Made by a program: the position numbers and the translations under genes
Part shown: positions 1,553-4,771 of the stretch, in pieces
How positions within the stretch are numbered: the first letter of the stretch is position 1
How the letters are laid out: every line of letters begins with the position of its first letter
NCBI RefSeq assembly: GCF_002214365.1
Contig: NZ_CP014854.1
Coordinates: 930,001-994,000 of the forward strand
Origin: Thermococcus celer Vu 13 = JCM 8558
GTDB lineage: Archaea; Methanobacteriota_B; Thermococci; Thermococcales; Thermococcaceae
Direction: 5' to 3'
DNA: 64,000 nucleotides
Notes under the pieces: model-generated
What the model was told of the DNA's origin: nothing
The model's database searches: none
What the model saw: the letters and a program-made list of their open reading frames with translations, nothing else

Positions 1553-1616
1553 CCGGGCGATGGCGTCCGCCCGGGCTTCGAGCCGAACCGCCCTCCAGGG
1601 CTGATGACGCCTGTTC
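1553..1616 (+). promoter_or_regulatory. Fluoride riboswitch (crcB-motif RNA)
   Basis: The sequence carries the key parts of the fluoride aptamer in order. Stem CGGGCG/CGCCCG (1554-1559 with 1568-1573) encloses the conserved AUG and a GCGUC loop (1563-1567), which can form the pseudoknot with GACGC at 1606-1610. Stem GCCCU/AGGGC (1590-1594 with 1597-1601) is followed by the conserved UGAUG (1602-1606). An extra small hairpin GGCU-UCG-AGCC (1574-1584) sits in the variable linker. The layout agrees with what I recall of the Thermotoga petrophila aptamer. Downstream, GGCGGU (1635-1640) within the ribosome binding site is complementary to ACCGCC (1587-1592) of the aptamer, so translation could be masked without fluoride. 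Confidence 0.87.
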
Positions 1617-1643
1617 TCCGCAAAACCATGAGGAGGCGGTGGA

Positions 1644-2510
1644 ATGGGCTCGAAGCTTTACGAGATGGGGAGATTCATCAACGCCGATTCCCTCGTCAGG
1701 TACATCGAGGAGAGGCGCCACGAGGACGGCGGTTACTGCTTCGTCAGCGTCCTCAGCGATACCAACGTCAACGACACCTACTACGCCATCAAAATCTACG
1801 ACCTCCTTGGACTGGATTTCCCGGAGCCGGAGAGGACTGTAGAGTTCCTTGAGAAGACCATACAACCCCAGACGGCGGTCGTTGCGATAGCGATGGCCAT
1901 GGAGGGTTTGGCCCTGCTCGGGGCCGGGGACGTGGCGAGGGAGCACCTCGACATCGTATTCACCAAGTACAACCCGCTCGAGGGTAAGTTCGCGGTGGGC
2001 CTCGGCGGAAGCGAGGAGTTCGGGACGGCGACACCGCTTGAGGCAACCTACTGGGTAACCAAGGCCTTCAAGGCCATCGGCCACGATTTCAGCACCGATG
2101 AGAGGGAGGCCATAAGGGCCTTCGTCATGAAGTTCAGGAACGGAAACGGCTTCGGCGTTAAGGGCCCGACGACGACCATGACCTACCAGGCCCTTTACGT
2201 TCTCCACGCCCTCGGCTACAGGCCGCCGAAAACCCCCCACTTCCGGAACTGCGAGCTCTGCGGCGACTGGGGCGGCTTCACCGAGGTCCCCTACAGTCTT
2301 CCGCCCTACATCGAGCCGACCTTTTACGGGACGAGGGGGCTTGGGCTCCAGGATGAAACTCCTAACTGCCCCCGGAGACACGTCTGGTTCATACGCCAGC
2401 TTCAGAACGCCAACGGCGGCTTCAGGAGGAGCCTCGAGCTCGGCATCTCGAACTTCCAGAACACATACAGGGCGCTTGCGGTGCTCGACTTCATGATGCG
2501 GTTCCTCTGA
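1644..2510 (+). CDS. Prenyltransferase/squalene-cyclase-like alpha-toroid protein
   Basis: A 288-residue protein with repeated helical-toroid features seen in prenyltransferase beta subunits and terpene cyclases: EDGGYCF near residue 28, NVNDTYYAIKIYDLLG, a central TPLEATYWVTKAF, GNGFGVKG, and a C-terminal NANGGFRRS followed by NTYRALAVLDF. I see no complete zinc or DxDD catalytic set, so the reaction is unknown. A CELCGDWGGF segment near residue 208 offers two cysteines. The ATG follows AGGAGGCGGTGGA directly. It is the first gene behind a fluoride riboswitch and starts a four-gene run that leads to crcB, so a role in the fluoride response is inferred from context. Confidence 0.72.
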   Translation: MGSKLYEMGRFINADSLVRYIEERRHEDGGYCFVSVLSDTNVNDTYYAIKIYDLLGLDFPEPERTVEFLEKTIQPQTAVVAIAMAMEGLALLGAGDVAREHLDIVFTKYNPLEGKFAVGLGGSEEFGTATPLEATYWVTKAFKAIGHDFSTDEREAIRAFVMKFRNGNGFGVKGPTTTMTYQALYVLHALGYRPPKTPHFRNCELCGDWGGFTEVPYSLPPYIEPTFYGTRGLGLQDETPNCPRRHVWFIRQLQNANGGFRRSLELGISNFQNTYRALAVLDFMMRFL

Positions 2511-2519
2511 GTGGTGGGC

Positions 2520-3209
2520 ATGGACCTGATAGGGATTTACCTGATGGACGCCCTCGGAGAGGGCTGTCCCGTCTGCAGGATACTTCGCAAGTACGAGGAT
2601 TCGGAGATAGAGATCATCCTTTACGAGCACGTGAACGACCCCGATGTGAGGGAGAAGTTCAGGGAGAGCCTCGGCCTCTGCACCCACCACGCATGGAAGA
2701 CCCTTGAAAAAGCTTACTCGGAGCCACTGCTGGGACCGCTGGGCGTGGCCATGATCTACGAGCACATGCTGGGGGTTTACGCAGACCTGCTGGAAAACGG
2801 CACGGCCCCCGAGGAGGGCGAGTGCTTCCTCTGCAAGCTGATGGAGGATAAGGAGAGGAGCACCGTGGAGGCGTTCGCCGATAGGATCGGGGAGCTCCTG
2901 CCCGAATACGAGCGCTCAGGGTCGATACTGTGCAAACGCCACTACGAGATGGTCCTCGAACTTCTCGAGAGGAAGAATCCAGAGGCGGCAGAAAAGCTGA
3001 GGGAGCTCCAGATTAGAAAGCTGAAGGGCCTCGGGGAGAGGCTCGGCTCTTTCATCGATAGGTTCGATTACCGCGCGAAGGAAGCGCCGAAGAAGGAGGA
3101 AGTATCCGCACTCCCGCTGGCGATAGAAGCATTGAAAGGTCTTGAAACGGGCGTAACGGTAAGAAAAAGGAGGAGCAAAAAACAAAGGGGGATACTCCCG
3201 TGGAAATAG
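2520..3209 (+). CDS. DUF6062-like cysteine-rich protein
   Basis: About 229 residues, cytoplasmic, with three cysteine clusters: CPVCRIL near the N-terminus, CTHHAW near residue 60, and CFLCKL around residue 102, then a CKRHYE. The repeated CxxC and CxxH pattern suggests metal or thiol binding. The middle is helical and the tail is very basic (KRRSKKQRG). This matches what I remember of the DUF6062 family, whose function is not known. A GTG at 2511 is also possible, but the ATG at 2520 has GGTGGG just ahead. It lies 9 bases after the toroid gene and overlaps the next gene by 10 bases, so it is translationally coupled in the fluoride-switched cluster. Confidence 0.6.
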   Translation: MDLIGIYLMDALGEGCPVCRILRKYEDSEIEIILYEHVNDPDVREKFRESLGLCTHHAWKTLEKAYSEPLLGPLGVAMIYEHMLGVYADLLENGTAPEEGECFLCKLMEDKERSTVEAFADRIGELLPEYERSGSILCKRHYEMVLELLERKNPEAAEKLRELQIRKLKGLGERLGSFIDRFDYRAKEAPKKEEVSALPLAIEALKGLETGVTVRKRRSKKQRGILPWK

Positions 3210-3499
3210 AGGTCACTGACGAGGAGCTCAAGACCATACGCGAGAACAGGCGGGAAATAGAGGGGAGATTCCAGGATCTGGAGGGACTTGAGAGGACGCT
3301 CCGGGTCCTAAAGCTTCGTCTCCTCCGTGAAGAGGAAGAGAGGCTGGAGAGGAAGCTGGAAGAGATGGAGTACGGCTATAAGGAACTCCTCGAGTTCGAG
3401 GAGATGGCAAAGCGGGACAAGGAGTTCCTGATGGAGTTCAGGAAGGAGCTCAGCGAGGAGAACAGGAAACTGAGGGAGAGGCTCGGGTGGAAGGGATGA
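3200..3499 (+). CDS. Small coiled-coil protein
   Basis: A 99-residue protein that is almost entirely charged heptad-like helix (LERTLRVLKLRLLREEEERL and on to ENRKLRERLG). It starts with GTG inside the end of the previous gene and ends in a 4-base overlap with the next, so it belongs to the same operon. I recognise no family. The C-terminal ENRKLRERLG closely resembles the ENKRLRERLG near the end of the next protein, so the two may pair through coiled coils. A structural or adaptor role is inference. Confidence 0.6.
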   Translation: MEIEVTDEELKTIRENRREIEGRFQDLEGLERTLRVLKLRLLREEEERLERKLEEMEYGYKELLEFEEMAKRDKEFLMEFRKELSEENRKLRERLGWKG

Positions 3500-3921
3500 A
3501 GATAACGGTGAGGCCGAAGAGGGGCTGGAGAAGGGTAACCTTCCGGATCCCCGACGAGACCTTCGAGAAAATCGGGGAACTCTGCGAACGCTACGGTTTC
3601 CGGGTGGATGAGGCGCTCAGGATAATCCTCCTCCACGGCTACCTCGACGACGACCCCGAGGCCAACGAAACCACGTTTAAAAAGCTCCAGGAGGATATAG
3701 GGCGGCTCAGCGCGGAGCTCTACGAGCTCGAAGGGAAGTGGTCCCCCCTGAAGTTCAGCTCGTACTACCTTGCCATGGACGACCAGAACCTGGCGATACA
3801 GCTTTCGGCGATGATAGCGGAGAACAAGCGCCTCAGGGAACGTCTCGGCCTTCCGCAGAAGGACTACGGTGAGGTCGAGGAGAAGATACACTACTACCTG
3901 AACTTCGGGCGGGGAAAGTAG
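3496..3921 (+). CDS. Predicted ribbon-helix-helix-like plus coiled-coil protein
   Basis: A 141-residue protein beginning MKITVRPKRGWRRVTFRIPDE. The pattern of a short strand (RRVTFRIPDETFEKIGELCERYG) followed by helices resembles the ribbon-helix-helix DNA-binding fold (VTFRIPDE, then EALRIILLHGYL). The rest is coiled coil ending ENKRLRERLGLP. The ATG overlaps the previous stop (ATGA), which beats the GTG at 3487. It may be a regulator or an adaptor; no family was recognised. It is the last of the four genes behind the fluoride riboswitch, with crcB starting 93 bases later. Confidence 0.55.
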   Translation: MKITVRPKRGWRRVTFRIPDETFEKIGELCERYGFRVDEALRIILLHGYLDDDPEANETTFKKLQEDIGRLSAELYELEGKWSPLKFSSYYLAMDDQNLAIQLSAMIAENKRLRERLGLPQKDYGEVEEKIHYYLNFGRGK

Positions 3922-4014
3922 TCGCATCCCTTCCTGAATCTCTGTATACATTCGCACCAAAACCTTAAATAGCCGGGTCCAAACGCCCCCCGGATAAAGG
4001 AAAGGGTGAAGACC

Positions 4015-4771
<757 letters not shown>

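Follow-up and report, generated by a model that had tools for sequence, protein, structure and literature searches.

Organization of the locus

A fluoride riboswitch aptamer occupies positions 1547-1620 of the window (the whole stretch of T. celer DNA analyzed, 64,000 nt). It lies on the plus strand, as do all the window features described below. The Rfam Fluoride model RF01734 scores 48.9 bits there against a gathering cut-off of 34 (E 1.7e-10), and the match spans model positions 1-64 of 64. Among Rfam families, RF01734 gives the sole gathering-level match in the 64 kb window, and the 1.87 Mb genome holds no RF01734 match other than 1547-1620. Judged from its sequence, the element is a genuine fluoride riboswitch of the known class, and it would be expected to bind fluoride. 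The P1 stem (CGGGCG/CGCCCG, 1554-1559/1568-1573, feature 1554-1573) carries within its loop the 5′ strand of the pseudoknot GGCGUC/GACGCC (1562-1567/1606-1611), both being supported by the sequence and the Rfam alignment; P3 (1590-1593/1598-1601) was assigned from the sequence, and the conserved UGAUG is also present. In relatives, P1, P3, and the long-range pseudoknot are kept, with 98.7% of cells paired and 15 double changes where shuffles give 2.6; pseudoknot column 13:64 alone has seven double changes, from UA to CG. An earlier note, made by reading the letters of the window, had recognized the aptamer, P1, the pseudoknot, P3, and UGAUG, together with the segments ACCGCC at 1587-1592 and GGCGGT at 1635-1640; the covariance-model search bears out its identification, and every element lies where it had been placed. 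It had also put the RNA at the 5′ end of a transcript by virtue of a TATA box, and we agree: a TATA-like box, GTTTTAAAA (1526-1534), precedes P1 by ~24 nt, most of the relatives compared have such a box at much the same spacing, and transcription would begin close to where P1 begins, the riboswitch heading a transcription unit.

Four ORFs follow (1644-2510, 2511-3209, 3200-3499, and 3487-3921), each abutting or overlapping the next, which is the four-gene run that the note had described. The first, which we call preT (1644-2510), encodes an alpha-alpha toroid protein of 288 amino acids (PF00432, 2.5e-9, 37.4 bits against a cut-off of 26.5), and the second (2511-3209) a DUF6062 protein (PF19538, 8.7e-20), whose gene sits in the same place in the majority of relatives, though not in every one. 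The run had been called unknown; with these two families assigned, that description now applies only to its third and fourth genes, for which the Pfam search returned no family above the cut-off. The third (3200-3499) is predicted to encode a charged 99 amino acid protein, coiled-coil-like by eye, with orthologs at the equivalent position in most relatives; the 144 amino acid product of the fourth (3487-3921) has a weakly ribbon-helix-helix-like N-terminus (aCcr1 family, E 0.0032, below the curated cut-off). Beyond the run lies another TATA-like box, CTTAAATA (3964-3971), which probably provides a separate promoter for crcB (4015-4386). This gene encodes the Fluc fluoride channel (PF02537, 2.8e-28, 98.7 bits against 32.9; TIGR00494, 91.4 against 80.45) and is indeed situated 2.4 kb downstream of the riboswitch, as had been noted. 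It is followed by a P-II-like DUF190 gene (4391-4771; PF02641, 1.2e-38), which stands after crcB in the linked loci examined.

Placement of the riboswitch in the Thermococcales

RF01734 was found in 88 of the 94 Thermococcales genomes, with 103 matches in total, and the surroundings of all 103 were examined. In 87 of them an intact preT start follows directly, with 12-44 nt separating it from the end of the match; one precedes a frameshifted preT (G076), and the remaining 15 precede the PF00146-type membrane subunit of a hydrogenase/complex I-like operon. All 88 riboswitch-bearing genomes have one match directly before preT (87 intact plus the frameshifted copy), and placement before preT is therefore a property of the order and no oddity of T. 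celer. The gene itself is single-copy and present in 90 of the 94 genomes, including 74/74 of those of good quality.

The note had viewed the RNA as a switch placed far upstream of crcB. The distance is correct, but the conserved target is the toroid gene, and the RNA is no displaced crcB switch. It could still be argued that the run and crcB form one transcript, that the RNA serves chiefly crcB, and that the toroid gene is a passenger; crcB-DUF190 is linked within 6 kb in 70 of the 87 loci, and in 10 no more than 60 nt separate crcB from preT. In Pyrococcus (genus g3 of the survey, assigned by its snoPyro_CD RNAs), however, crcB is unlinked and without a riboswitch, whereas preT retains one. 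Because of this arrangement, the sequences identify the toroid gene, and not crcB, as the constant partner of the riboswitch in the order, and on the same loci we rejected the crcB reading. Its standing is further reduced by the TATA-like box before crcB in T. celer, by the separate start site of T. kodakarensis crcB (TK0514), which lies between TK0513 and TK0514 (PMC4247193, 2014), and by genome G012, which keeps preT but has lost both crcB and the switch; overall, we consider it very improbable. In G012 preT is intact, and what precedes it is a remnant of 3′ aptamer sequence (GATGGCGCCTATTCT; L148:4940-5000); a search for crcB gave no match in that genome. Two further genomes document decay at the locus: in G080 (L149:6004-6562) the riboswitch was lost together with the 5′ end of preT, which is now a pseudogene, and in G076 (L127) the frameshifted preT lies behind an intact riboswitch; both keep crcB.

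Predicted pairing between the leader and the start of preT

The ribosome binding site of preT, GGAGGCGGU (1632-1640), is off-consensus for the lineage. GGCGGT occurs in the Shine-Dalgarno (SD) window of 67 of the 87 orthologous leaders, whereas CGGT follows GGAGG at none of the 344 other GGAGG-bearing ORF starts of the same loci, where TGAT is the commonest sequence; the ORFs in the fetched loci served as background for codons and SD sites alike. By sequence and duplex prediction, ACCGCC (1587-1592), which comprises the 5′ strand of P3 with its flank, would act as an anti-SD arm by pairing with GGCGGU (1635-1640), and the helix is extended past a bulged C1593 by UCC (1594-1596) with GGA (1632-1634). 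Across the 72 distinct leaders, this SD helix (helix 3) is 94.4% paired and shows one compensatory change, ACUGCC with GGCAGU in G063; G046 and G052 have ACUGCC with GGCGGU, giving a G-U pair. Some Pyrococcus (G004) have lengthened the helix to ten pairs, ACCGCCUCCC:GGGAGGUGGU. The SD part is not universal, because one clade (G024, G043, G049, G057, and G062) has GGAGGTGAGAGA instead of GGCGGT. Leaders of those five genomes contain GGAGGTGAGAGAATG, and by eye the end of their aptamer could instead take part in a UUCUC/GAGAA hairpin whose loop would hold the SD.

Duplex energy was discarded as proof of the ACCGCC:GGCGGU pairing. It is unremarkable, since 7 of 27 other SDs in the window bind the aptamer equally well and 129 of the 344 background sites are equally strong, and it is weak evidence, since every GGAGG site forms a good duplex with an aptamer as GC-rich as this one. 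The translational platform that the note had built on this helix is nevertheless plausible, given the 67 leaders, the empty background, and the compensatory change, but it was incomplete: the helix amounts to about 1/3 of the pairing.

The larger part of the predicted platform is contributed by a side arm, GGGCUUCGAGCC (1573-1584), located between P1 and P3. In the ON state it would form a small hairpin (1574-1577/1581-1584), and in the OFF state it would instead pair with positions 1647-1658, that is, with codons 2-5 of preT (GGC UCG AAG CUU), as the partner strands of an anti-start helix. The reverse complement of the arm core GCUUCGAGCC (1575-1584) is GGCUCGAAGC, which is identical to preT codons 2-5 as far as 1656 (1647-1656), and 1573-1584 with 1647-1658 makes 12 contiguous pairs, 10 Watson-Crick and two G-U. 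At least 11 contiguous pairs of this arm:gene-start kind are available in 74 of the 87 leaders, and at least 10 Watson-Crick pairs in 72 of the 87, as against 1 of 470 other gene starts. The gene start reads ATGGGCTCGAAGC in 74 leaders and ATGGGCTCGGAGC in six of the 87.

The first codons of preT hardly vary in nucleotide sequence. Synonymous conservation is 1.00, 0.95, and 1.00 at codons 2-4 and drops to 0.565 at codon 5, while the other 4- and 6-fold codons of preT reach 0.713 at most, their median being 0.445. The codon counts are GGC 83/83, TCG 80/84, and AAG 80/80; at codon 5, CT is kept and the third position is free, so that the freeze ends near the end of the pairing.

The gene start might of course be conserved for some other reason, such as a required N-terminus (MGSKL), a DNA element, or a binding site, with its complementarity to the arm being incidental. 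Six armless leaders, plus that of the riboswitch-less G012, do keep the gene start GGGCTCGAAGC, and the OFF helix does not covary significantly: over the 72 distinct leaders, covariation was no better than in shuffles, and the single double change belongs to the SD part. This lack of significance arises because the helix hardly varies, the main helix being 99.9% paired across those leaders with variants that are almost all G-U compatible; covariation was dropped as support for the OFF helix, and synonymous constraint and co-loss were used instead. Protein sequence leaves the frozen third positions unexplained, and a background rate of 1/470 does not fit an incidental match. Moreover, the start is altered in none of the 74 leaders with an arm but in 7 of the 13 armless ones (Fisher 2.9e-7, uncorrected for ancestry), and a protein tree places ~8 arm changes and five start changes such that every altered start falls in an armless lineage. 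We thus judge incidental complementarity to be improbable.

Folding and the proposed switch

The predicted MFE and centroid structures alike contain the long-range helix (z -2.66), and it is retained in the MFE at 37, 65, and 85 C. Nested folding, with the pseudoknot left out, gives ~-52 kcal/mol for the OFF form and ~-23 kcal/mol for the aptamer. The OFF form being far more stable, switching would have to be kinetic, with the choice made during transcription. The predicted conserved pairing, in which covariation is not significant, covers both the SD and the start, and its overlap with P3 and the arm suggests that it and the aptamer exclude each other.

In the mechanism that we propose, the riboswitch would stand at the head of a polycistronic mRNA. 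Without fluoride, 1573-1584 would pair with codons 2-5 (1647-1658) and ACCGCC with the SD, so that the AUG would be left in a small internal loop flanked by the two helices and initiation would be blocked; the arm:codon helix would open the side arm and separate P1 from P3, and the SD helix would occupy the 5′ strand of P3. Binding of fluoride to the aptamer as it is being transcribed would have the opposite effect, in that the arm would close on itself, P3 and the pseudoknot would form, and the SD and start codon would be free. With its probable promoter, crcB would not be mainly under riboswitch control in T. celer; in the ten or so relatives where it abuts preT, it would be co-transcribed. 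We estimate a probability of about 0.7 that the riboswitch controls translation of preT through this two-helix platform, and through preT the run behind it. To our knowledge, very few natural riboswitches have been tested in archaea, and little is known of how they control genes there. A mechanism of two helices with coding sequence as one of the strands would be open to testing by synonymous mutations alone.

Alternatively, the switch could act mainly on transcription or transcript stability, factor-dependent early termination of leader RNA that is misfolded or left untranslated yielding a short crcB RNA, and the gene-start pairing being secondary or coupled. An 86-nt crcB RNA has been reported in growing T. 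kodakarensis cells (PMC4247193), and an RNA of that length starting near P1 would end close to the start codon. By inspection of the sequence, however, the leader has neither a poly-U tract nor a terminator hairpin, and the missing U-tract makes intrinsic termination unlikely; in addition, the constraint on codons 2-5 and on the SD fits a block of initiation. We consider termination as the main mode of action unlikely, but it and a block of translation can coexist, as blocked translation can expose the RNA to termination.

The toroid protein

An AlphaFold2 model of preT has a pLDDT of 91.8, and its nearest PDB folds by Foldseek are RabGGTase beta and squalene-hopene cyclase (E ~2e-5, TM ~0.6, identity ~16%); together with the PF00432 score above its cut-off, this assigns preT to the alpha-alpha toroid fold that it shares with the prenyltransferase beta subunits and squalene-hopene cyclases. 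No known catalytic motif was identified in preT. Several orthologs lack the CxxC found at residues 203-206, a motif that could hold zinc, and this speaks against a zinc prenyltransferase. A conserved loop at 119-128 (around GLGGSEEFG), predicted with low confidence, might serve as a ligand loop. That preT limits the entry of HF through a role in isoprenoid lipids is no more than a guess.

A profile search of the genome contigs with the toroid alignment gave matches in the Thermococcales only. Outside the order, 21 further genomes of the phylum were examined, and one of them (G099, from another family of the class) encodes a protein distantly related to the toroid (hhalign probability 96%, 23% identity), the sole and an independent case among the 21. 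In G099 a single fluoride riboswitch is present, and the gene for this relative lies ~2 kb downstream of it; all elements share one strand, in the order crcB-DUF190, riboswitch close behind, dynamin-like GTPase, small ORF, and toroid relative (L187:5612-9315). Another genome, G110, has a fluoride riboswitch directly before crcB. Literature searches found nothing that joined a fluoride riboswitch to a prenyltransferase, and in the literature searched TK0513, the counterpart of preT by position in T. kodakarensis, came up in a single paper.

If riboswitch control is as we suppose, a conserved, unstudied toroid protein would be a direct target of fluoride sensing in the Thermococcales, apart from the CrcB channel. 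Tentatively, and at somewhat less than even odds, preT may be a new kind of fluoride-resistance factor and the main switch target throughout the Thermococcales, with a distant relative in the riboswitch-crcB locus of a second family, and with a sensor arm controlling its mRNA by a read-out on the codons of the gene itself.

Comparison with other loci and known systems

The 15 RF01734 matches before the PF00146-type subunit represent a second, shorter fluoride riboswitch, carried by 15 Thermococcus genomes (L104:8001-8100 and 14 loci of the L032-L131 set). The genes behind it start with TTG or GTG, and all 15 leaders read GGAGGTGACGCC. Note that the GACGCC before the start repeats the 3′ pseudoknot strand of the aptamer and could pair with GGCGUC. 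The two kinds belong to a common aptamer family, and in the short class a strand of the SD region matches an aptamer strand (GACGCC); unlike the preT type, it has no side arm, targets a membrane subunit, and uses a different decoy.

A separate observation concerns three Pyrococcus loci (L077, L080, and L082), in which ATGAGCCGAAACCGGCAACGGGAGTAGG is conserved, with close variants, within ~45 nt 5′ of the aptamer, where other genera have the TATA box. An Rfam search of this region gave no match.

The T. celer RNA shares its aptamer core, pseudoknot, P1, and P3 with the RF01734 class at large; it differs in that a conserved side arm, whose sequence matches the beginning of the gene downstream, is placed between P1 and P3, and in a target that is the toroid gene and not crcB. 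Closer to hand, a working fluoride-responsive switch in T. kodakarensis was reportedly described by Speed et al. in 2018 (PMC5861836, cited in PMC8241225). In a statement that cites Speed 2018, PMC8241225 has the T. kodakarensis fluoride switch presumably acting on translation. RNA-seq placed the 86-nt crcB RNA of that species, "surprisingly", upstream of TK0513 and not of TK0514 (PMC4247193); the two species belong to the same order, the placement before the gene preceding crcB is equivalent, and crcB starts separately. The riboswitch and its placement were therefore already known. Neither the order-wide target nor the arm:codon pairing is described in the accessible T. kodakarensis accounts (PMC4247193, PMC8241225), and both are new with respect to the accessible literature, although Speed et al. 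2018 may already have described the platform.
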